Part shown: in pieces, positions 20,662 to 32,723 of the stretch | Position numbering within the stretch: position 1 is the stretch's first letter | How the letters are laid out: each line of letters begins with the position of its first letter | Source: Flavobacteriales bacterium | GTDB taxonomy: Bacteria > Bacteroidota > Bacteroidia > Flavobacteriales > Schleiferiaceae | DNA length: 33,535 bases | NCBI GenBank assembly: GCA_012269745.1 | Contig: JAAXJR010000013.1 | Location: 86,357 to 119,891 of the forward strand | Reading direction: 5' to 3' | Made by a program: the position numbers and the translations under genes | Notes under the pieces: generated by a model | What the model saw: only the letters and a program-made list of their open reading frames with translations | What the model was told of the DNA's origin: nothing | The model's database searches: none

Positions 20662-21326
20662 TGTCAACACACTTTCTTGAGGTCCGTCAGCAGCAGCGAG
20701 TCGACGTTTTGGGTGAATTAAATGCAAACACCACGGACATTTGGCTTGCATTGCACGGTTATGGTCAGTTAGTAGAATATTTTCAAAGACATTTTAGAGA
20801 AAGTGTAAGCTCTTCAAGAGCCTTTGTCTTTCCACAAGGCGCACATAAGTTTTACCTTCAAGGCACCGAGGGTCGTGTCGGAGCCTCTTGGATGACCAAG
20901 GAAGATAGACTGACAGATATCGATAATCAACGCTTTTATTTGGACGAAGTGTGTAATTGGGCATCAAACCAAGCACCCAAAGCACGTTTCCATATGCTTG
21001 GATTCAGCCAAGGCGTGGCCACAGGAATGCGTTTCCTCGGGTACTCAAAAGTTACCTTTCACAGTTTGCTAGCTTGGGCAGGGAGTTGGCCGCCGGATCT
21101 CGATGAAAAGAGCCAATTAGCGACGAGAGCTTTGCACATGAGCGCATGGTTCGGGACAAAAGATCCATTCGTTGACGAAGCCAAAAAGCAAGAGCGAATA
21201 AAACATTACAAAGAAAACTATAGCATAGTCCCTGATGTGGGGACATATGAGGGCAAGCATACCTTCGATTCCAATATCTTAGCGAGCGAAATAGCCCGCT
21301 TAGAACAACTAACACTCAAACGATGA
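20661..21326 (+). CDS. Alpha/beta hydrolase, carboxylesterase-like
   Basis: This 221-residue cytoplasmic hydrolase has no signal peptide. The nucleophile elbow GFSQG holds Ser116, the oxyanion loop is LHGYGQ at 31-36, Asp168 is in FGTKDPF and His200 in EGKHTFD. Together these form a complete Ser-Asp-His triad in the order of the phospholipase/carboxylesterase (YpfH/Fsh1-like) group. Likely substrates are small acyl esters or thioesters. It is coupled at both ends (TAATG with the hydratase, ATGA with the DUF819 gene), so it probably works in the same expression unit, but a shared pathway is not shown. Confidence 0.88.
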   Translation: MSTHFLEVRQQQRVDVLGELNANTTDIWLALHGYGQLVEYFQRHFRESVSSSRAFVFPQGAHKFYLQGTEGRVGASWMTKEDRLTDIDNQRFYLDEVCNWASNQAPKARFHMLGFSQGVATGMRFLGYSKVTFHSLLAWAGSWPPDLDEKSQLATRALHMSAWFGTKDPFVDEAKKQERIKHYKENYSIVPDVGTYEGKHTFDSNILASEIARLEQLTLKR

Positions 21327-22579
21327 CACACGAAATAGATCCTTGGATTACTAATGACGCGACCCTTTTCGGGATTTTGGCCGCTATGTTGGGCGGAATC
21401 TTTCTTACTGCGAAGAGCGAAAACCCGTTTTGGAAGAAATTCTACAAGTACATTCCCGCACTATTGTTGTGTTATTTCCTACCATCGTTATTGACCACAT
21501 TTGAAATTATTGACCCAAAGCAGAGCCGTCTGTATTTTATGGCATCCCGCTACTTGCTGCCTGCAGCCCTTATTTTATTGACACTAAGCATAGATTTTGG
21601 AGAGGTAAAAAAGCTAGGCCCGAAAGCTTTAATCATGTTCTTTACAGGAACTGTAGGTGTCATCATCGGGGGTCCAATTTCAATTTTATTGTTTAGTGTT
21701 ATTGCACCGGATATAATTGGTGCTAATCCTGAAGAGATTTGGCGTGGTATGACCACTGTCGCCGGTTCTTGGATTGGCGGTGGAGCAAATCAAGCAGCCA
21801 TGAAGGAGGTCTTTGAAGTTAGTGAAGGCATCTTTTCGGCCATGGTTACTGTAGACGTTCTTGTAGCTGAGTTGTGGATGGCATTCTTGCTCATTGGTGT
21901 GGCCAAAGCAAAAAATATTGATGCAAGGTTTAAGGCGGATGCATCTTCTGTGCTAGCGCTTCAAGAGAAAATGGAAGCCTACACTGCGAGCATTTCTAAA
22001 ATCCCAACATTTAACGACCTCATCTACATCTTGGCCATTGCTTTTGGAGCAACAGGCTTAGCTCATGGATTGAGTGATATTATTGCTCCATTCATTAGTG
22101 AAAACTACCCTGTACTTGCCAAATTTAGTCTGACCTCTGGATTCTTTTGGTTGGTGGTGATAGCCACCACTATAGGTATTGCATTGAGCTTTACGAAGGC
22201 TAGAAATTTAGAAGGAGTTGGAGCTTCGAAAGTAGGCTCAGTGTTTATCTACATACTTGTAGCAACCATAGGGATGAGCATGAACGTTATGGAGGTATTT
22301 GAAAACCCCGGCCTATTTGCAGTAGGTTTAGTGTGGATGTTTATCCACGTAGGTCTGATGTTTTTGGTGGCGAAGATTATTAAAGCCCCGTACTTCTTCT
22401 TGGCAGTTGGGTCTAAGGCAAATATTGGAGGGGCAGCCAGTGCTCCAGTGGTAGCTGCAGCCTTCCATCCAGCACTTGCTCCTGTGGGAGTTCTTTTGGC
22501 GGTTCTAGGCTATGCCTTGGGAACTTACGGCGCCTACATCTGTGGCCTCTTAATGCAAGGAGCAGCAGGTGTCTACTAA
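21323..22579 (+). CDS. DUF819 family membrane protein
   Basis: This 418-residue integral membrane protein has about ten to twelve hydrophobic helices. Landmarks of the DUF819 (YjcL-like) family are GSWIGGGANQAAMKEVFE in the first half and GSKANIGGAASAPVVAAAFH in the second. These paired Gly/Ala-rich motifs suggest an inverted-repeat transporter fold. The family is uncharacterised; a transporter of a small organic ion is a reasonable guess. The start overlaps the esterase stop as ATGA and the end overlaps the next gene by 11 bases. Confidence 0.9.
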   Translation: MTHEIDPWITNDATLFGILAAMLGGIFLTAKSENPFWKKFYKYIPALLLCYFLPSLLTTFEIIDPKQSRLYFMASRYLLPAALILLTLSIDFGEVKKLGPKALIMFFTGTVGVIIGGPISILLFSVIAPDIIGANPEEIWRGMTTVAGSWIGGGANQAAMKEVFEVSEGIFSAMVTVDVLVAELWMAFLLIGVAKAKNIDARFKADASSVLALQEKMEAYTASISKIPTFNDLIYILAIAFGATGLAHGLSDIIAPFISENYPVLAKFSLTSGFFWLVVIATTIGIALSFTKARNLEGVGASKVGSVFIYILVATIGMSMNVMEVFENPGLFAVGLVWMFIHVGLMFLVAKIIKAPYFFLAVGSKANIGGAASAPVVAAAFHPALAPVGVLLAVLGYALGTYGAYICGLLMQGAAGVY

Positions 22580-23075
22580 GGAAATAGATATTAAAAACGG
22601 GAGAGCCTTCCCTGAACCGTTTAGATTTTACCTGTTGATTGGTATTATCTGTATTTCCACTATAGCTGCTGGAGAATACATCGGTTTTGGCTTTTTACTC
22701 ATTCCTATTCTTGGAATAACAGCAAGACGTGGTACTCAATTTAGGGGCGAGGAGTATCGCCGCTATTTTTCTGTTCTTGGACTCAAATTCGGATCTTGGG
22801 AACAGGTGAAAGAAGGAGAGGATCTAGTGCTTTTAGGCCTTCATATGAGTAGCCAATTCGGTTCGTACGGCGGTTTGCTTAGCACGAAAGAGGAAAAGGT
22901 ATGGACGCTGTATCTTGTAGATTCAAAGCATAGAAATAAGCGTGATTTAGGCATTTCGCTTCACAAAGAAGAATTAACACAAAGAGCAATGGAGGTCGTT
23001 GCGAACTCCTCATTAGAATTGGTGCCGTATGCACCTGTAATTTCGCAGCAAACTCAGAGCAGAAAAAGACGATAA
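22569..23075 (+). CDS. Small membrane protein, two N-terminal helices
   Basis: This 168-residue protein starts with GTG inside the end of the DUF819 gene. A hydrophobic hairpin at about 20-52 (FYLLIGIICISTIAAGEYIG then FGFLLIPILGI) is followed by a soluble domain that may be PH-like and a basic tail (SRKRR). I do not recognise a named family. The 11-base overlap with the DUF819 gene and one-base gap to the M28 peptidase show it belongs to the same unit. The clean frame and tight packing support it as real. Function unknown. Confidence 0.75.
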   Translation: MSTKEIDIKNGRAFPEPFRFYLLIGIICISTIAAGEYIGFGFLLIPILGITARRGTQFRGEEYRRYFSVLGLKFGSWEQVKEGEDLVLLGLHMSSQFGSYGGLLSTKEEKVWTLYLVDSKHRNKRDLGISLHKEELTQRAMEVVANSSLELVPYAPVISQQTQSRKRR

Positions 23076-23076
23076 C

Positions 23077-24441
23077 ATGAGAAATTTATTTCTAGGACTT
23101 GCCTTGGGCATTTGCGCTCAGACTATGGCTCAAGAAGCACCGGCAGATGCAAAGGATGTAATCAAAGCTATCTACACAGAGGCTTTGGGTGAACAACAAG
23201 GCTACAATTGGCTGTATCACATTTGTACAGAAATAGGTCCACGTCCTAGCGGATCGGAAGCTTCGAATGAAGCAGCGCGATACACCATGCAAATGATGCT
23301 TAATGCGGGCGCTGATACGGCTTGGTTACAACCCGTAGAAGTTCCAAAATGGCACCGCGGAGACGAATGGTCGAAAGCGTACGCGGGAGGCGAGCCGGTT
23401 TCTCTTCCTACTACTGCATTAGGAGGTTCCGTTCCTACACCAATGGAAGGAGTGAAGGCAGAAGTTGTTGAGGTGGGTTCTTTCGAAGAACTTGAAGCGC
23501 TAGGAGAGGAAGGAATCAAAGGAAAAATAGTCTTCTACAATACCTACATGGACCACAGCTTGATTAGCACCTTTAACGCTTATGGCGGCGCTGTCAAGTA
23601 CCGTTGGGCGGGTGCTATGGAAGCAGGCAAATATGGCGCTGTTGCTACAGTGATGCGCTCTGTCACCCTACTTCGCGATGATTTGCCCCACACAGGTGCA
23701 ATGAGCTATGGAGATAGCGAGGTGAAGGTGCCTTCGGCTGCGATTTCTTGGCAGGCAGCAGATAAGCTGAGCACTATGTTGGAAGGCGGAAAGGTCGAAT
23801 TAGAACTGTATTTGGACTGTGGCGTACAAGGGACAGCCACGAACTACAACATGATTGCAGATTTCAGAGGAAGTGAAAAGCCAGAGGAGATTATGCTTGT
23901 AGGTGGCCACATTGACTCTTGGGATTTGGGACAGGGAGCGCAAGATGACGGCGCTGGATGTGCACATGCTATGCAGGTGCCGAACCTTATGCGTAAGGCC
24001 GGTTATCAGAACAAGAGAACGGTTCGTGTGGTCCTTTGGGCAAACGAGGAATTTGGATTAGATGGCGCGAAGGAATACGCTCGTTGGGCCAAGGAAAACG
24101 GAGTGCATCACTGGGTGGCTATGGAAAGCGACGGAGGCGGAGATGTCCCTAGAGGCTTCGGTATTGGTGCAGATGATACTCGTATTGAGCAAGTAAGAAC
24201 GTTTAAGAGCTTGTTGAGCCCATATGGTCTTCATGTCTTTGCAAAGGGGGGCGGTGGAGCCGATTTAAGCCCGCTGCGCGGCTACGACAACTTCTTTATT
24301 GGATACCGTCCAGAGAGTCAGCGGTACTTTGATTTTCACCATAGCGCGCGTGATAATATAGATGCCATTCACCCACGAAGCTTAGAAATGGGTGCGGCTT
24401 CAATGAGTGCGTTATATTACTTATTAGACAACTTAGACTAA
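23077..24441 (+). CDS. Secreted M28 family zinc peptidase
   Basis: This 454-residue exported peptidase has signal peptide MRNLFLGLALGICAQTMAQ. The two-zinc site is complete: His278 in GGHIDSWDLG, Asp291 in AQDDGAG, Glu324-Glu325 in ANEEFGLDG, Asp352 in MESDGGG and His421/422 in DFHHSARD. A PA-like inserted domain spans about 115-240. It resembles plasma glutamate carboxypeptidase-type M28 enzymes, which release amino acids from peptides. No C-terminal type IX sorting domain is visible, so a periplasmic place is likely. It lies between the small membrane protein and the glycosidase-kinase gene, 16 bases before the latter. Confidence 0.92.
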   Translation: MRNLFLGLALGICAQTMAQEAPADAKDVIKAIYTEALGEQQGYNWLYHICTEIGPRPSGSEASNEAARYTMQMMLNAGADTAWLQPVEVPKWHRGDEWSKAYAGGEPVSLPTTALGGSVPTPMEGVKAEVVEVGSFEELEALGEEGIKGKIVFYNTYMDHSLISTFNAYGGAVKYRWAGAMEAGKYGAVATVMRSVTLLRDDLPHTGAMSYGDSEVKVPSAAISWQAADKLSTMLEGGKVELELYLDCGVQGTATNYNMIADFRGSEKPEEIMLVGGHIDSWDLGQGAQDDGAGCAHAMQVPNLMRKAGYQNKRTVRVVLWANEEFGLDGAKEYARWAKENGVHHWVAMESDGGGDVPRGFGIGADDTRIEQVRTFKSLLSPYGLHVFAKGGGGADLSPLRGYDNFFIGYRPESQRYFDFHHSARDNIDAIHPRSLEMGAASMSALYYLLDNLD

Positions 24442-24457
24442 CAACACCTAAACTGCT

Positions 24458-26281
24458 GTGAATCATAAATTTGAAAAAGATGCGTGGTCTGTTTTGGCCA
24501 AATCAGCCAAAAACTTTGGCTTTGTAGCGACCGCTCAGGACACGGACAACTATGCTCGACTTTGGTCGAGGGATAGTGCCATAGCATCTTTGGCGGTTTT
24601 GTCGCACGGTTACCAAGCGCTTTACCCTACAGTTAAAAGTAGTATTCTAAACTTGCTGGACGCCATTGGTGACGGTGATGTATTTCCGTCCAACGTGAGT
24701 TTTGATGAGGACGGAGTGCGCTCTGGACAGAGCTTTGGTGGCCCAGTAGGCAGGACAGATAGTCCTTTTTGGTGGGCGGTTACCGCGCTATCCTATATGG
24801 AGGTTTCAAAGGACTTCAGTAATAAGGATGCTATAGCAGATGCTATAGAAGAGATCGAGCGCAGAGCGCAGGCTTGGGAGTTTAACAACAAGCATTTGAT
24901 GTACTCTCCTGCCAGCAGCAATTGGGCAGATGAGTATCCAGTGGAAGGGTATATTCTCCTCAATAACATATTGAGGTACTGGATGTTAAAAAAAGTATCA
25001 CGTGTGCTTTTGTCAGATACATATTGTGAAAAGGCAGAACAAGTCCTCGGCTCTATTAAGTACCACTTCTTTGGTGAGCCTGCTCAAGCGCAAAACTTGT
25101 TTACACCAGCTCAATCACAAAAAGTCGATGCTCTGGAAGGAGGTCAACGTATTTTGATGAGTTTCACTCCTGGTTCTACATTGAATCATATCGATACGCT
25201 AGGTTGGAGTATTTCAATGTTGTTAGGAATAACGAGTGAATCGACGACCAAGAAGATGGTTGAAAGATTGCGCAAAGAAGTGGGTGGAACCTTAGCTCCT
25301 GCGCATTGGCCCATCATAGATAAAGATCATACACTTTGGGGCGCTATTGCATCGAATTACGCCTATAATTTTAAAAACCACCCTGGACATTTCCATAACG
25401 GCGGCGTTTGGGGTTTAACGCAAGGATATACTGCTGCAGCAATGAACACGCTGTTTGGAGAGAATCATGCGTACATGGCGAGCTATGAGAGAATGTTGGA
25501 AAGCTCAATGGAGGAGCACTCTTTTGCTGAATATTATTCTTACCCAGATTTGAAGCCTGGTGGCGTGAAGAACCTTTGTTTTTCTGCTGGATCTTATTTG
25601 ATTGCTACTGCAGCCGCTGATCAGGGCGAGGCGTTTACTGCGATTTTTGAACGTCAGTTGAAGGTTTTGATGGCGAAGGCGGTGAAGGTTGCAGAGGAAT
25701 TGGCCCGTGAGGTGGTTCAAAAATCGCCGGCTAAGGTGTATCGTGTGAGCGGTGAGAGCGGCTGTGGCAAGACGACTTTGGCAAAGGCCATTGTGAAGGA
25801 ACATGAGGCGCAAGGGAAAAAGGCGGTACTTATTTCACAGGACGAATATTTCCATTTGCCGCCAAGGCAAAACCACAATAAACGGGTTGAGGACTTTGAA
25901 TGGATAGGCCTTGGTGAGGTGGATTGGAAGCTGTTGAATAGGGTCATTGATCAGGTTTTGGATTCGGAGGTAACTAGTGTGGAGGTGCCGGAGATGGATT
26001 GGGAATTGGACACGAAAGAGTGGAAAACGATGGAGGCTGAAAAGGTGGATGTCGTTGTTATCGAAGGTACTTATGTGCTTGGGGAAAAGCGTGAGGGAGA
26101 GTTCGGGATTTTCTTTGAGCATACCTATGAGGACACTCGGGAAAATAGATTGGCGCGTAATAGGGAAGTCGTGGACGATTTTATCCAGCGCGTCTTAGAA
26201 AGAGAACACAAGATTATTAGTGGCTTAAGAGAAAAAGCCGACCTTGTGGTCAGCAAGAATTACACAATAACACAACCATAA
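24458..26281 (+). CDS. Glycosidase-P-loop kinase fusion protein
   Basis: This 607-residue protein starts with GTG and lacks a signal peptide, so it is probably cytoplasmic. Residues 1-400 look like an (alpha/alpha)6 glycosidase of the debranching-enzyme/GH100/GH15-like kind. Landmarks are YARLWSRDSAIASL (Asp39), WADEYPVEGY (Asp158, Glu159) and HFHNGGVWGLTQGY at 311-324. Residues 415-607 are a uridine-kinase/phosphoribulokinase-like domain. This has Walker A GESGCGKT at 432-439, DEYF at 462-465, VVVIEGTYVL with Glu536, and an Arg-rich lid (RLARNREVVDDF). The frame is continuous. An internal ATG at 25670 (Met405) with AAGG seven bases before it could start a free kinase. The GH97 gene begins three bases after the stop. 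Substrates of both domains are unknown. Confidence 0.85.
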   Translation: MNHKFEKDAWSVLAKSAKNFGFVATAQDTDNYARLWSRDSAIASLAVLSHGYQALYPTVKSSILNLLDAIGDGDVFPSNVSFDEDGVRSGQSFGGPVGRTDSPFWWAVTALSYMEVSKDFSNKDAIADAIEEIERRAQAWEFNNKHLMYSPASSNWADEYPVEGYILLNNILRYWMLKKVSRVLLSDTYCEKAEQVLGSIKYHFFGEPAQAQNLFTPAQSQKVDALEGGQRILMSFTPGSTLNHIDTLGWSISMLLGITSESTTKKMVERLRKEVGGTLAPAHWPIIDKDHTLWGAIASNYAYNFKNHPGHFHNGGVWGLTQGYTAAAMNTLFGENHAYMASYERMLESSMEEHSFAEYYSYPDLKPGGVKNLCFSAGSYLIATAAADQGEAFTAIFERQLKVLMAKAVKVAEELAREVVQKSPAKVYRVSGESGCGKTTLAKAIVKEHEAQGKKAVLISQDEYFHLPPRQNHNKRVEDFEWIGLGEVDWKLLNRVIDQVLDSEVTSVEVPEMDWELDTKEWKTMEAEKVDVVVIEGTYVLGEKREGEFGIFFEHTYEDTRENRLARNREVVDDFIQRVLEREHKIISGLREKADLVVSKNYTITQP

Positions 26282-26284
26282 AAG

Positions 26285-28387
26285 ATGAAAAAGGTAACAC
26301 TACTTTTCATTGGGATGGCTTTCGCAGCTTGCTCTAAGCAGGGAGTTGAAGCGATTGCTAGTCCAGACGGCAACGTACAGGTAAGCGTTGACGTAAACAC
26401 AGAGGGTAAGATTTATTACTCGGTAGATTTTAAAGGAAAAGAGGTCATTGAATCTTCGTACTTGGGGTTCGATTTTGCGGAAGCAGAGGATCTTTTGGAT
26501 GGATTTGAATTGGCCACAGTTGATGTAAAGGAAGTAAGCGATGCTTACACGATGCAGTGGGGTCCAAATACTGAGCTTTCGTACACGCACACCGAAGCCA
26601 CGTTCAACTTTACCCATGTCCCAACAGGTAGAACTTTAGGCGTTGTTTTCAGAGCAGCGAACGATGGATTTGCTTTCCGTTATTTGATTCCTGAGCAGGA
26701 AGAAGGACAGTTGGTGGTAAAGGCCGAGAAGTCGGAATTTAACTTGTCTGAAGATGCCATGGCGCATTGGATTCCTGGAGACTGGGAGATCTATGAGCAC
26801 CCATACAACCACACGAAGGTGAGTGAGATTGATGCCTTGAGCAAGGCCAACCACCCGAATTTGGCAGCAACAGTTATTGTGGAGAACAGCGTTAGCACCC
26901 CGGTGACCTTCGAATATAAAAACGGCACCCACCTGAGCATCCACGAGGCAGCCTTGGTGAATTATTCTGGCATGACCTTGCGTCGCGAGGGCAAGCATGG
27001 CTTTGTGAGCTCTTTGGTAGGTCGAGAGGACGGTAACAAAGCGACCATTCCAACGCCATTTAAGACGCCTTGGAGAATGGTGACATTGGGCGATGAGGCG
27101 ACCGATCTATTGGCGTCGCACCTCATGTACGATTTGAATGAGCCGAACCAGATGGGCGATATCTCAGAATGGTTTACTCCACAGAAATATGTGGGTATCT
27201 GGTGGGAGATGCACATGGGCAAGAGCACCTGGGATTACGGTATGACCCAAGATATGGGCACGTGGATTGATGACGGTCGTGAGCACGGTCGCCACGGCGC
27301 TACAAACGAAAACACGCGTAGATATATTGACTTTGCCGCTGAGCACGGATTCAGCGGTGTGTTAGTAGAAGGCTGGAATACGGGCTGGGAGCACTGGATT
27401 GGTTTTGACGACCGTGAAGGGGTGTTCGATTTCGTAACCAGCTACCCAGATTACGATATGGCAGCGCTGCAGAAATATGCGAAAAGTAAAGGTGTGAGTT
27501 TGGTGATGCACCATGAAACTTCTGCTGCACCACGCACCTATGACCAGCAGATGGATACCGCGTATGCATTGATGCAAGCGAACGACATTCATTTGGTGAA
27601 GTCGGGCTACGTAGGGCCACTTTTACCGAAGGGAGAATACCACCACGGTCAGTGGATGGTGAACCACTACAATAATGCAGTGACCAAAGCATTCGACTAT
27701 CAGATTGCTGTGAATACGCATGAGCCTATCAAGGGGACTGGATTGGAGCGTACATGGCCTAACTGGGTGGCTCGCGAGGGTGCTCGCGGACAGGAGTTCA
27801 ACGCATGGAGTATTGAGAAAGGGAATTATGTAGATCACATTCCAACCATGGCCTTTACCAGGTTCTTGAGCGGACCGATGGATTACACCCCTGGGGTATT
27901 CCAATTGGAAACTAAGAGCGGTCCGGATGGTGATAACAGAGTTCGATCTACGGTAGGCCAGCAGTTCGGCTTGTACGTTGTGGTGCCGTCGCCTATTCAA
28001 ATGGCGTGTGACCTTCCGGAGAATTACGAGAAGCATTTGGATTGGTTGCAATTCATCAAAGACGTAGCTGTCGATTGGGAGCGAAGTATTCCAGTGGCCG
28101 GTAAAGTGGGCCAATATGTGGCTTGGGCGCGTACACCAAAGGAGAACGACAACTGGTACCTGGGCGCGGCAAACGCCGATGGAGCGCACCAGATTAGCAT
28201 TGCGCTAGACTTCCTTGAGGAGGGCGCTACCTATGAGGCACAGATCTACCGCGATGCAGATGATGCAGATTGGGAAACCAACCCGTATGCGGTGACTATA
28301 GAAACTAAAACGTACGTGAAGGGCGATAGCTTTGATGTACGTTTGGCTTCAGGGGGTGGCTTTGGTGCTATCCTAGTGAAGCAGTAA
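26285..28387 (+). CDS. GH97 alpha-glucosidase lipoprotein, inverting type
   Basis: This 700-residue lipoprotein (lipobox FAAC, Cys16) matches SusB-like glycoside hydrolase family 97. It has an N-terminal beta-sandwich to about 270, a catalytic barrel to about 600 and a C-terminal beta domain. Key Glu residues keep the SusB spacing: Glu411 in MHHETSAAP, Glu480 in NTHEPIKGTGL, and Glu498 and Glu504 in REGARGQEF. Their intervals of 69, 18 and 6 residues equal those of the SusB residues 439, 508, 526 and 532. This places it in the Ca-dependent inverting alpha-glucosidase group. It likely releases glucose from alpha-glucans or oligosaccharides at the outer membrane or periplasm. It follows the fusion gene and ends before a terminator. 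Confidence 0.95.
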   Translation: MKKVTLLFIGMAFAACSKQGVEAIASPDGNVQVSVDVNTEGKIYYSVDFKGKEVIESSYLGFDFAEAEDLLDGFELATVDVKEVSDAYTMQWGPNTELSYTHTEATFNFTHVPTGRTLGVVFRAANDGFAFRYLIPEQEEGQLVVKAEKSEFNLSEDAMAHWIPGDWEIYEHPYNHTKVSEIDALSKANHPNLAATVIVENSVSTPVTFEYKNGTHLSIHEAALVNYSGMTLRREGKHGFVSSLVGREDGNKATIPTPFKTPWRMVTLGDEATDLLASHLMYDLNEPNQMGDISEWFTPQKYVGIWWEMHMGKSTWDYGMTQDMGTWIDDGREHGRHGATNENTRRYIDFAAEHGFSGVLVEGWNTGWEHWIGFDDREGVFDFVTSYPDYDMAALQKYAKSKGVSLVMHHETSAAPRTYDQQMDTAYALMQANDIHLVKSGYVGPLLPKGEYHHGQWMVNHYNNAVTKAFDYQIAVNTHEPIKGTGLERTWPNWVAREGARGQEFNAWSIEKGNYVDHIPTMAFTRFLSGPMDYTPGVFQLETKSGPDGDNRVRSTVGQQFGLYVVVPSPIQMACDLPENYEKHLDWLQFIKDVAVDWERSIPVAGKVGQYVAWARTPKENDNWYLGAANADGAHQISIALDFLEEGATYEAQIYRDADDADWETNPYAVTIETKTYVKGDSFDVRLASGGGFGAILVKQ

Positions 28388-28762: not shown

Positions 28763-30190
28763 CTATTTCTTAATGTATTCGAGCATAGCAATGTATACGC
28801 CGTTGCTCCATCCAAAGCCGTCTTGTACGTCGTATTCACCGCCTTTGCTTAGGTTTTCAGGCTCAACCACATTGTACTTTTCCACGAATTTGCCGCGCGC
28901 GTTGTAAACGATATCACACGTTCGTATCCATCGCGTCGCGAGGTCTCTAGCTTCATCTATAAATCCGTAGCGGTCCAGACCCATCACAGCAATCCATTGC
29001 AAAGGCGCCCAGCCGTTGGGAGCGTCCCACTGTTGACCACTATTTATTGGCGTAGTTAAAAGCCCGCCGGTTTCCAGTAATTGGGGTAGGTGGTGTTCTA
29101 CGGTAAACGCCGCTTGGTCGGCAGTTGCCGCGCCCACAAAGAGCGGGTAGAATACAGCTGCACTTACAGCGCCGGTACCGGCACCGCTTCTCAAGTCTAT
29201 GTCTTGGAAGCCTTCTTCGGTAAAGAATTCTGATTGAAGCTTGCGCTTGCGCTCGTAGGCGGCATCTTCGTAAACCTTATTTCCAGTGAGGTTGAACAGG
29301 AGCTCTTCGAGGAAGAGTAGTAGTGAGTTGAGGTCAACAGGTGCGATATCCATGGTATGAATGGTGCCAAGGTCCATGGGGTCACTGAGCCACCTTGAAG
29401 AGAAGTCCCAACCGCTTTCGCAAGCAGCACGAAGGTGCTGGAAGAACAGGGGGTGCTCCTTGGCGTGCGCCTCCCACTCCAGATCGGTACGGTACATTTC
29501 GATGCGGGGCGAATTCCCAGCGTCCCAATAGGTGGTTTTTCCGGCTTCGTTGCGGTGTTCTGCAGACCAGAAAGCATATTCTTTTTCTAGTGCCGGCAGA
29601 TAGCGTTCGTAGACGTCCATGGGTTCTTCTGCACCTTTGGCGTAGGCATCCACCATGAGGGCAAAGAAAGGGGGCTGAGAGCGCGAAAGGAAGTAGGTGC
29701 GGTTGCCGTTGGGAATGTGTCCGTAGGTATCGATAAAATGGGCAAAGTTGTCGAGCAAGTCGCCCACCCAAGAGCGGTGTCCGTGTGCAAGTAGTCCTAG
29801 CTGGGTGAAGTAGCTGTCCCAATAATAGACTTCTTGGAACCTCCCTCCAGGCACGATGTAGGAGTGGGGAAGGGGAACTTTCGTGCTGAGTATATCTGTA
29901 GGGTCGGCACTGCGGTGCAGATATGGCCAGAGTGCTTTAATGTGATCCTCCGGTGAACGGTTGGGGTCGGCAGCAAAATCGACCTCCACAGCCTGTGCAG
30001 GCTGGAAGTGTTTTTCGAAGAAGGATTTTAGGTCAAAATTGGCCCCCGATTTTTCTTCGTTGTAAAGGGCCAGAACCTCGTCTATGGGCGTGGTGAGCTC
30101 TGCATCGCTGATGTATTTCTCGTCTTCCCATATGCCACTTGTGTGCAAGTCGACAAAGAGTTCGCCCAGAAGTTGATCGATCGTATTCAC
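28763..30190 (-). CDS. treF: Cytoplasmic trehalase (GH37)
   Basis: This 475-residue enzyme splits trehalose to two glucose molecules. Both family signatures are present: PGGRFQEVYYWDSYF at 114-128 and QWDAPNGWAP at 387-396. The catalytic acid Asp262 is in ESGWDFSSRW and the base Glu452 in GGEYDVQDGFGW, in the same contexts as Asp312 and Glu496 of E. coli Tre37A. There is no signal peptide, so it is a cytoplasmic TreF-type enzyme that depends on import. It starts with GTG, with AAGG just upstream, nine bases after the MFS stop, so the two are likely one operon. Confidence 0.95.
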   Translation of the reverse strand: MNTIDQLLGELFVDLHTSGIWEDEKYISDAELTTPIDEVLALYNEEKSGANFDLKSFFEKHFQPAQAVEVDFAADPNRSPEDHIKALWPYLHRSADPTDILSTKVPLPHSYIVPGGRFQEVYYWDSYFTQLGLLAHGHRSWVGDLLDNFAHFIDTYGHIPNGNRTYFLSRSQPPFFALMVDAYAKGAEEPMDVYERYLPALEKEYAFWSAEHRNEAGKTTYWDAGNSPRIEMYRTDLEWEAHAKEHPLFFQHLRAACESGWDFSSRWLSDPMDLGTIHTMDIAPVDLNSLLLFLEELLFNLTGNKVYEDAAYERKRKLQSEFFTEEGFQDIDLRSGAGTGAVSAAVFYPLFVGAATADQAAFTVEHHLPQLLETGGLLTTPINSGQQWDAPNGWAPLQWIAVMGLDRYGFIDEARDLATRWIRTCDIVYNARGKFVEKYNVVEPENLSKGGEYDVQDGFGWSNGVYIAMLEYIKK

Positions 30191-30199
30191 CCTTAGAAT

Positions 30200-31408
30200 T
30201 TACGCTTTCTTAGTCAATCTTTTTAAGACGAATACTGCGATCAGCAGGAGCGTCATAGGTACTAATGTGAAATAGAACGCACCGCCGCCTAATCGCTCAA
30301 AGAAGTAGGCCGTGATTCGTGATCCTAGGGTGCCACCCGTAGCAGAAAACAGTACGATCAGGCCGGTCATTGGGCTGTGCATTTTCTTAGGCAGGGCACT
30401 GAGCACTACGCTGTTTAATAGCGGGTAGATAGGGGCAATAAAGAGTCCTACTAGTGGGAAGATGAAGGCGAGTACCGGTAGGCCAAAGATCATGGCAGCA
30501 TCTTCGCTTACTTCACGATCTAGCGCTTGCGGGAGGACAAAGGCCACCATGAGCATGGCGCCGACAATAGCTCCCGAGATGACAAGGGTCCAGTGGAAGC
30601 GCTCGCTCAATTGGCCCCCAAGGATCCTGCCTAAACCTAGGGTAATGGCGAGTATACTGGCCATACGAATACTGTTGCTTTCGCTCAGGGCCAAAACCTT
30701 CTCGTTGAACGTTGGCAGCCAAGTCATAATGCCCTGCTCCACCATCACGTATAGGAAGGCGGAGAAGACAAATACGACAACCAAAAGCTTGGTGATGAGT
30801 CCGATCATGGCAGAGAACTCTTCGCTCAGGGGCGTGCTATTTTCCTCTTTAGGCAGCTCTGGAATGCGCGCAAGAAAGGCCACAGCTACTAGAACTAAAC
30901 CAGTGAGCAGGAGGTAGACGTTGAGCCAAGCGCTTGGGTCTGTTTCGCTATTGAAGGCGGGGAAAAGGAAATAGGCCAAGGCGATACCGAACATGAACGT
31001 TCCTTCCACGGAACTCATCAGTGCATTGTGCTCTTTTTCTCCTGAGGTTACTTCACCGATAGAGCCATAAACCGCCACCTTGATCAGGGCAAAGGAAGAC
31101 CCAACAATGGCAAAGAGGATTTGCGAAGAAATAAAGCTATTTCCTGCCCACATCTGAATCAAACCCAGCGAGGTAATCGAAAGGGCAATGACCATAATTT
31201 TCTTGTAGCCGATGCGTGGGACAAAGCTGGCAATGAGGAACGAAACGATGGCAACAGGCATGTCCTTGAAGAGCTCAAGCGTGCTGGCCTGCACTTCGCT
31301 TACGCCATAGTTGTTAATGCTTTTAAGAATTACGATTCCTACACTGTTCAGTAGGATGGCGTACACAAAGAAGTTGATGTGCAACGCCCATTTGAACGGC
31401 TTATTCAT
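30200..31408 (-). CDS. MFS transporter, probable sugar importer
   Basis: This 402-residue protein has twelve predicted membrane helices and a charged central loop (ARIPELPKEENSTPLSEE) between the two halves. It belongs to the major facilitator superfamily by layout; motif A is weak (SFVPRIGYKKIMV in the loop between helices 2 and 3). The gene sits just before cytoplasmic trehalase and starts inside the end of the haloperoxidase-like gene by eight bases. This place makes import of trehalose or a related disaccharide the best guess, but substrate cannot be read from the sequence. Confidence 0.88.
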   Translation of the reverse strand: MNKPFKWALHINFFVYAILLNSVGIVILKSINNYGVSEVQASTLELFKDMPVAIVSFLIASFVPRIGYKKIMVIALSITSLGLIQMWAGNSFISSQILFAIVGSSFALIKVAVYGSIGEVTSGEKEHNALMSSVEGTFMFGIALAYFLFPAFNSETDPSAWLNVYLLLTGLVLVAVAFLARIPELPKEENSTPLSEEFSAMIGLITKLLVVVFVFSAFLYVMVEQGIMTWLPTFNEKVLALSESNSIRMASILAITLGLGRILGGQLSERFHWTLVISGAIVGAMLMVAFVLPQALDREVSEDAAMIFGLPVLAFIFPLVGLFIAPIYPLLNSVVLSALPKKMHSPMTGLIVLFSATGGTLGSRITAYFFERLGGGAFYFTLVPMTLLLIAVFVLKRLTKKA

Positions 31409-32723
31409 TTCCGATGTAGGTCGTTAAGTTGGCATCTAGGTAGGCGCCCAAAGTGCGTCCTTGGCTCACTCCAATCTCGATGGCTGGCATGTAGTGAATG
31501 CCACCGTACAATCTCGAAATGGCCGCTTCGTCAGAGGCAGCAGTGAAGCTTTCGTAGGAGCGGTCGGGAAGCCCATATACGCGTTCTGTGGAATCTTGGA
31601 AGGCAAAATTATCGCCAAAGACACCGGTGAGCATTACTCCAGCGGCACCAGAAATTACACTGTGTCCCGAGGTATATTCAGGGAATGGAGGTGTTTGCAG
31701 CAATGGGGTCCAATTCTCGTCAAAATTCTCATTAATTACCGTCTCTGGGCGGACCAATTCTGAACGGTACTTCTCATCCCAACAAGAGATGAAGCCGTCA
31801 AACAACCCCGTAGCAGCGCGCAAGTGCGCATTGATGGTAGTACCGTAATCTGCTTCAGCCTTGCGACAAGCAATGCCCGTAATGCCCATCCAGTGACCTC
31901 CTGGGGTGATTTTCTTTGTCGCCAACATCACGTGACCGCGGTGCACACTCACATACGGGTTACAATCCCAAAACTGCGCAATGGCTTCTTGCTCTGGAGT
32001 TAGGTTGTTCACGGTGTGGTACACCTCCATGAGGTCTTTGTAAAATTTCGAGGCGGTATCCAAAGAAGGGGTTGGTGGCGGCACCGGCTTGAACATCTGC
32101 GCACTGTCCATGACGAGCGTACGAATGTTTCTCCAGTGCGGCTCAATACCGTCCATATAATCTGGAGGGGTTGGTTTCCAGCGCATCGGATCGTCGTTGA
32201 TCTCGTATTTGGTAAACGTGCGGCTTTGGTTGTAGTTATCTCCCTGGGCCCAATTCAACACAGCATCTGCAACGCGTTGTCCGTAGGCGCGGCTCACGGC
32301 GATGGCTTCATCGCTGTGGTGTTCACGCATCTTTTCGAACAAACCGTCCATATGTGCTTGCATGCGGTCTTCTGAGAAAATCAAGGCTTTACCGACCACA
32401 CCCAAGGCATGAAGCGAAGCTAGTTCGGGTACGTAATTTTCATCCGTTGGTGCTGGGTCTACCGTTGGGAATTCGTGGAATTGACCCGCAAGAGAACGGT
32501 AATCTGCATTGCTTTGAGCCACTACCTCGTAGGCAGCTGCGCCAGAGTAGGCATATACCCTTGCGGCCACAGGTGGCGAGAAAATATCGTGCACCAAGAT
32601 GTCTGTGATGGCCTGATATGCGTTCTGCAGATCACGCGAATAGTCGTTGTACGGCTCTTTGGGACCTTGGCAAGAGGTCGCCACAAAGGCGCTTACAGTG
32701 AGTGTTAGTAGAAGTCGTTTCAT
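31401..32723 (-). CDS. Vanadium-dependent haloperoxidase/PAP2-fold lipoprotein
   Basis: This 440-residue lipoprotein (lipobox ATSC, Cys18) has an all-helical C-terminal domain of the vanadium haloperoxidase/acid phosphatase superfamily. The oxyanion site is complete: Lys318-x6-Arg325-Pro (KYRSELVRP), PPFPEYTSGHSV with His354, and SRLYGGIH with Arg404 and His410. Thr replaces the usual Pro before SGH, and the Asp seen four residues after the last His in classical members is Ala. Members may be haloperoxidases or phosphatases and the two cannot be told apart here. Its start is 11 bases after the upstream lipoprotein stop, and its end overlaps the MFS gene. Confidence 0.9.
   Translation of the reverse strand: MKRLLLTLTVSAFVATSCQGPKEPYNDYSRDLQNAYQAITDILVHDIFSPPVAARVYAYSGAAAYEVVAQSNADYRSLAGQFHEFPTVDPAPTDENYVPELASLHALGVVGKALIFSEDRMQAHMDGLFEKMREHHSDEAIAVSRAYGQRVADAVLNWAQGDNYNQSRTFTKYEINDDPMRWKPTPPDYMDGIEPHWRNIRTLVMDSAQMFKPVPPPTPSLDTASKFYKDLMEVYHTVNNLTPEQEAIAQFWDCNPYVSVHRGHVMLATKKITPGGHWMGITGIACRKAEADYGTTINAHLRAATGLFDGFISCWDEKYRSELVRPETVINENFDENWTPLLQTPPFPEYTSGHSVISGAAGVMLTGVFGDNFAFQDSTERVYGLPDRSYESFTAASDEAAISRLYGGIHYMPAIEIGVSQGRTLGAYLDANLTTYIGNE

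Follow-up and report, generated by a model that had tools for sequence, protein, structure and literature searches.

The closest described relatives of the hydrolase examined here are the alkaline/neutral invertases of family GH100, represented by InvA and InvB of Anabaena and CINV of Arabidopsis. In InvA, Asp188 and Glu414 are reported to be the catalytic residues (PMC6995568). Kinases that phosphorylate hexoses have been described from other folds, and the uridine-kinase-like kind of P-loop kinase is not known for activity on plain hexoses. The 2005 kinase classification assigns fructokinase and glucokinase to the ribokinase-like and ribonuclease-H-like groups, and the part of its P-loop list considered here names gluconokinase, phosphoribulokinase, and uridine kinase and no hexokinase, glucokinase, or fructokinase (PMC1079889). 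A P-loop kinase has been connected with fructose in S. meliloti, where mutation of frcK led to less growth on fructose and to a fructose uptake of about half; the same report gives Frk as the demonstrated fructokinase and describes the substrate of FrcK as not apparent (PMC10433430).

The gene described below encodes a GH100-like hydrolase and a P-loop kinase as one protein. The literature searched, which lay outside most subscription journals, contained no paper naming such a fusion.

The fused gene and its hydrolase half

The window, by which we mean the whole analyzed stretch of 33,535 nucleotides, carries the fused gene at 24458..26281 on the forward strand. Its open frame begins with a GTG codon and is free of internal stops across all 607 codons. 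Both halves of the 607-residue product scored above the curated Pfam cut-offs, with 25.3 bits for GH100 (PF12899, cut-off 23.6, passed narrowly) and 29.4 bits for the PRK/uridine kinase superfamily (PF00485, cut-off 22). These data bear out the earlier note, made from the letters and open reading frames of the stretch, which had read the region as a glycosidase-type domain joined in one continuous frame to a uridine-kinase-like P-loop kinase.

An AlphaFold2 model of the fused protein, based on an alignment of 69 sequences, reached a mean pLDDT of 92.3 and a pTM of 0.81. The GH100-like (alpha/alpha)6 domain comprises residues 1 to approximately 400 (24458..25657, forward strand). It is followed in the model by a linking stretch that is largely a single helix (model residues 400–422; 25655..25732, forward strand) and by the P-loop kinase domain, from approximately residue 426 to residue 607 (25733..26278, forward strand).

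When six rows of the N-terminal domain were combined into a profile and compared with the PDB, the matches included plant CINV1 (E 1.3e-13) and the Anabaena proteins InvB and InvA. In the alignment from the same profile, NWADEY lies opposite MIDRR of InvA, and AEYY lies opposite PEYY. Asp-158 in NWADEY (24929..24931, forward strand) is aligned with Asp188 of InvA and is the presumed general acid, and Glu-358 in AEYY (25529..25531, forward strand) is aligned with Glu414 and is the presumed general base. Asp-158 is kept in 89 of 89 aligned rows and Glu-358 in 88, the remaining row having a gap at this position, so that the catalytic acids are retained across the aligned rows. The earlier note had pointed to Asp-39 in an RDS motif; this residue is indeed invariant (89/89 rows), but it does not align with the catalytic pair of InvA.

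The best structural matches to model residues 2–399 were GH100 invertases, namely 6ttj (Z 38.2, rmsd 3.4, 376 aligned), sucrose-bound InvA (5gop; Z 37.6, rmsd 3.3, 376 aligned), and InvB (5z73; Z 36.5, rmsd 3.0, 372 aligned), and the first family outside GH100 followed at Z 30.8 (rmsd 3.1, 345 aligned). As modeled, the hydrolase fold is closest to that of the sucrose invertases. The N-terminal half thus agrees with GH100 in its Pfam score, in its invertase-type (alpha/alpha)6 barrel (VIA Z 36–38 to InvA, InvB, and CINV), and in the aligned equivalents of Asp188 and Glu414, and it would be expected to hydrolyze sucrose. It shares its fold and its catalytic Asp/Glu positions with the alkaline/neutral invertases, which are its best structural matches, but it is only 18–20% identical to them and differs in its bacterial operon setting and in being fused to, or in relatives paired with, a kinase.

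The P-loop kinase half

The earlier reading of intact kinase motifs was confirmed in detail. An alignment of 43 rows, including the window, contains 19 invariant positions. In the Walker A motif GESGCGKT (residues 432–439; 25751..25774, forward strand), G432, S434, G435, G437, and K438 are found in 43 of 43 rows. The Walker-B-like stretch VDVVVIEGTY (residues 530–539; 26045..26074, forward strand), which ends in the acidic motif IEGTY (535–539), keeps G537, T538, and Y539 in every row and E536 in 41, and the Arg-rich lid RLARNR (residues 564–569; 26147..26164, forward strand) keeps R564, R567, and R569 in every row. Asp-462, which lies in SQDEYF (460–465), and Arg-476 are equally present in 43/43. 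A further conserved motif, LPPxxNHxxR, is particular to this kinase, and its positions are each retained in 40–43 of the 43 rows.

A model of the kinase alone (residues 398–607, 43 sequences) gave a pLDDT of 91.7 and a pTM of 0.88. When Z differences below 1 are counted as ties, its fold matches were type I pantothenate kinase (Z 17.1, rmsd 3.5, 201 aligned), uridine kinase (Z 16.8, rmsd 2.7, 169 aligned), phosphoribulokinase (Z 15.8, rmsd 2.8, 172 aligned), the FrcK-like protein 3c8u (Z 15.4, rmsd 3.5, 186 aligned, tied with many others), and D-glycerate 3-kinase 6ckg (Z 13.8). With the PRK/uridine kinase superfamily (Udk, type I PanK, PRK, and FrcK-like 3c8u), the kinase half has in common the P-loop kinase fold, Walker A, an aspartate after the second strand, and the Arg lid.

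The nearest curated models are those of uridine kinase. However, the score against the uridine kinase equivalog TIGR00235 was 51.7 bits, far under the curated cut-off of 220.3, and identity as a uridine kinase (Udk) was rejected on this basis. The PRK09270 models, which we take to cover FrcK-type kinases, scored 26.5 bits against an equivalog cut-off of 227. The LPPxxNHxxR motif and the link to GH100 further set this kinase apart from the described members of the superfamily.

More distant kinase relatives (133–160 bits) were found in one Bacteroidales-like family. Where looked at, they stood in a menaquinone-type operon or among unrelated genes, and these neighbors yielded no substrate hint; in L199 (3933–12112), for instance, from a family with genomes of ~2 Mb, a uridine-kinase-like gene (157 bits) lies amid genes for chorismate-binding, TPP enzyme, enoyl-CoA hydratase, MenC-like, and AMP-binding proteins.

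Fused, adjacent, and exchanged kinases in relatives

A search of 60 genomes, that of the window included, found matches at E ≤ 1e-10 in 12. Intact fused genes are present in genus members G007 (90% identity), G017 (87%), and G002, G008, and G018 (58%), and fused relatives in other families show 35–41% identity in their best tblastn segments. Because intact copies occur in other species of the genus and in other families, the fusion is not an accident of assembly; it is real and conserved, and the related genomes uphold the earlier note on this point. Not all copies are intact. The gene is split over two overlapping frames in the genus member G021 (L013/L008), and two other members, G004 (L011) and G006 (L012), keep only fragments, one of which contains stops; in G019 an N-run of the assembly falls within the gene. 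The two domains are separate neighboring genes in G028 and G054, with a TonB receptor before them and an MFS transporter after them.

Neighbor counts from the scan of named genomes rest on the best 80 (L057–L136) of 465 related loci, to which at least two assemblies contribute two loci each. The labels MFS, TonB, PfkB, GH97, GH37, and SSF were assigned with small profiles whose source loci belong to that set. Among the best 80 of 465, an intact fusion with the P-loop kinase is present in 18 and a broken one in 1 (L059, counted by the script among its 26 “next” P-loop loci); the next gene encodes this kinase in 25 and a PfkB kinase in 36. The balance of fused to adjacent separate genes, a matter raised by the earlier note, therefore stands at 18 intact to 25. 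The intact fusions come from the window genus, marine Flavobacteriaceae, Sphingobacteriaceae, and Chitinophagaceae. With PfkB scored as present above 150 bits, none of these 80 loci has both kinases and none has neither; lower-scoring ORFs resembling PfkB (66 and 67 bits) lie in the flanks of the P-loop loci L079 and L080.

GH-domain matches were obtained from 19 of the 395 genomes of a phylum sample, and 14 of these matches were close, with E below 1e-80. These 14 close GH100 relatives, that of the window's genome included, divide into five with the P-loop kinase, seven with PfkB (one fused), and two (L039 and L048) with neither kinase nearby by the profiles used. Kinases above 300 bits in this sample were limited to the five sequences that had seeded the query profile, with no additional close member, so their linkage to GH100 is not independent evidence. 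An order sample, again of 395 genomes, contained the kinase in 22, fused or adjacent to GH100 in 21 of the 22, and several of these are query seeds. A plasmid search returned three records, the one informative being Gemmatirosa of another phylum, Gemmatimonadota, in which GH100, the P-loop kinase, and a sucrose-type MFS transporter occur together.

The PfkB-fused relative, L049 (6031–8187, G286), resembles the window protein in placing a sugar kinase after an invertase-like domain within one polypeptide, but its kinase comes from a different family and the fusion is a separate one on the GH tree. This tree of 89 rows was built by a quick method and rooted at the midpoint; in it, the rows with a fused P-loop kinase, including the window, form one group of 20 (SH-aLRT 100). 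The split between P-loop and PfkB kinases takes about two changes, and that between fused and separate genes takes two. GH100 and the P-loop kinase thus probably fused once, and the GH100-PfkB fusion arose separately; the approximately two changes of kinase type also mean that the 80 loci represent few independent events. The same hydrolase fused with two unrelated kinases is a clean case of convergence.

Gene neighborhoods and the candidate substrates

In the sucrose-type operons of Bacteroidota, PfkB fructokinases occupy the same place behind the GH100 gene as the P-loop kinase and adjoin the same kind of MFS transporter, but they belong to an unrelated ribokinase-like family (PF00294) and are analogues, not homologues. 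The MFS proteins adjoining GH100 alongside either kinase had the sucrose/proton symporter TIGR01301 as their best NCBIfam match in 8 of 8 cases tested (including L041), with E values of 1e-22 to 1e-29 that all fall under the model's cut-off. MFS-type neighbors are present at 11 of 18 fused P-loop loci, 20 of 26 with the P-loop kinase next, and 32 of 36 with PfkB next, and TonB receptors at 6/18, 17/26, and 17/36, respectively, some loci being cut by contig ends. In L040 and L050 an SSF symporter takes the place of MFS. A LacI-type regulator lies upstream in five of five loci tested, and five of five operon PfkB proteins tested matched 5-dehydro-2-deoxygluconokinase (IolC) first and fructokinase second, all below cut-off. 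Near the window's own cluster there is neither a sucrose-type MFS nor a TonB gene, and the MFS protein of the genus does not match TIGR01301.

Other glycosidase genes adjoin the fusion. A GH97 gene recognized by Pfam, its product with a lipoprotein-signal-like N terminus as judged by eye, starts three bases after the fused gene (26285..28387, forward strand) and is probably on the same transcript. GH97 also lies directly downstream in the relatives L053, L054, L056, L064, and L065. The adjacency reported in the earlier note holds for the window and for some relatives only; among the best 80 of 465 loci, GH97 lies no more than four genes away at 7 of 18 fused loci and at 1 of 26 loci with an adjacent kinase. 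On the reverse strand follow a GH37 trehalase identified by profile (28763..30190), in which no signal peptide is evident by eye, and an MFS transporter (30200..31408) that, by profile comparison, is not of the sucrose-symporter type and is 55% identical to the trehalase-adjoining MFS of G711.

We propose that the fused protein combines two activities in the breakdown of disaccharides and probably resides in the cytoplasm. Its GH100-like half would convert sucrose to glucose and fructose through the Asp/Glu mechanism of the alkaline invertases, using Asp-158 and Glu-358. Its P-loop half would transfer phosphate from ATP to the hexose set free, most likely fructose, and would thereby perform the step carried out by PfkB fructokinase in sister operons. 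The earlier suggestion that sugar release and phosphorylation are united in one polypeptide is backed by the fusion, by the adjacent separate pairs, and by the replacement of the P-loop kinase by PfkB in sister operons. Of the substrates then envisaged, a sucrose-like one agrees with the GH100 profile and fold and with the sucrose-symporter-type neighbors of relatives, and a glycosyl-glycerate is not favored. We regard sucrose as very probably the substrate of the hydrolase. On balance, the explanation we favor is that a sucrose hydrolase has been joined to a kinase of the released hexose, most likely fructose, and that this kinase takes the role of PfkB. Both halves would be catalytic, and the fusion may bring a benefit such as channeling.

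The identity of the hexose is where the main alternative arises. The presence of PfkB, a ketose-type kinase, in the same place in 36 of the best 80 loci favors fructose, and we consider fructose the probable main acceptor; glucose, or both hexoses, are possible acceptors. With the hydrolase as described, the kinase could instead be a glucokinase or a dual glucose/fructose hexokinase serving the breakdown of sucrose, trehalose, and alpha-glucosides, a reading that we hold to be rather unlikely. It would account for the trehalase and GH97 genes that adjoin the fusion in the window and for the result that no ROK/Glk glucokinase was found in G028 or in the 12 genus genomes, four of which are below 90% completeness. 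However, G054 carries Glk and ROK in addition to the P-loop kinase, and glucokinase families beyond ROK/Glk may exist; a PF00349 search of the window's genome gave zero matches, as did its control. The same reading draws on G711, in which the P-loop kinase and a sucrose-type MFS lie beside a PAP2 protein and a trehalase (L227, 6712–8784) and GH100 had no match in a genome rated 100% complete, but the GH63-like gene also held by this cluster could release another sugar. Within the window's genome, a GH32 gene on contig C16 adjoins a fructokinase-like PfkB gene (L167, 17–2325); this PfkB, together with the lack of ROK/Glk matches there, would suit a role for the P-loop kinase on glucose. Across 25 chosen genomes, the presence of the P-loop kinase relative to other glucokinases and fructokinases was mixed, with no clean pattern. 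Trehalase genes occur among the 12 genus genomes and G028, in which no ROK/Glk was found.

It is improbable that the hydrolase acts on a different small glucoside, such as glucosylglycerate, glucosylglycerol, or a sucrose isomer, with the kinase phosphorylating the aglycone. The GH100 match is distant, GH63 mannosylglycerate hydrolase has the same fold (Z 29.5, rmsd 3.1, 321 aligned), and the fold matches of the kinase include D-glycerate 3-kinase, but the GH100 invertases lead other families by ~6 or more Z units, and the neighbors in relatives are of sucrose-symporter and fructokinase types. A glycosyl-glycerate substrate in particular is disfavored, as the GH63 enzyme lies clearly under the GH100 invertases (Z 38.2) and a fructokinase/IolC-type PfkB is not expected for glycerate. 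The kinase could also act on nucleosides or vitamins or be regulatory, in which case it would have been joined to the hydrolase for control and would not phosphorylate a sugar. This reading would fit the uridine kinase models, the pantothenate and uridine kinase folds with FrcK-like 3c8u among them, and the fructose uptake of frcK mutants, which is about half, with a FrcK substrate described as not apparent (PMC10433430), but it is highly improbable given the low TIGR00235 score, the pairing with GH100, the exchange for the PfkB sugar kinase, and the LPPxxNHxxR motif.

Returning to the sucrose pathway, we consider it likely that the P-loop domain is a hexose kinase for fructose and/or glucose that was exchanged with PfkB, in either direction, in a Bacteroidota sucrose operon and fused to the invertase as a one-protein sucrose-to-hexose-phosphate enzyme. 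The invertase part belongs to the known GH100 kind, and a hexose-phosphorylating P-loop kinase would, if shown, be the new element. It would add a third fold for hexose kinase activity to the ribokinase-like and ribonuclease-H-like ones and would widen the range of activities of the P-loop fold. It would also account for a group of genes of uridine-kinase type in the sugar operons of Bacteroidota, represent a natural invertase-kinase fusion, and might offer a lead on the substrate of FrcK (PMC10433430).

Further genes recur around these clusters. Tightly upstream of the fusion (window 21323–24441) lie genes for a DUF819 membrane protein, a 168-aa protein without a Pfam match, and an M28 peptidase, and ORFs similar in length and order are found upstream in the genus relatives L052, L054, and L055. 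A gene for a PAP2-superfamily protein (window 31401–32723) lies next to those for the trehalase and MFS. In L044, L053, L064, and L227, clusters with GH100, GH97, or trehalase again have PAP2 and long proteins of FG-GAP repeats close by, with PAP2 in L064 just below the cut-off and FG-GAP in L227 judged by eye.

Finally, two relatives carry other fusions. In L051 (7624–9702), a sucrose-6-phosphate phosphatase domain is fused to a GH100 domain, beside a GT4-type glycosyltransferase. In L079 (9132–11429), directly after GH100, the P-loop kinase is fused C-terminally to a GH13 enzyme whose best model, below cut-off, is alpha,alpha-phosphotrehalase. The fused parts in both loci agree with the indications from the neighboring genes.
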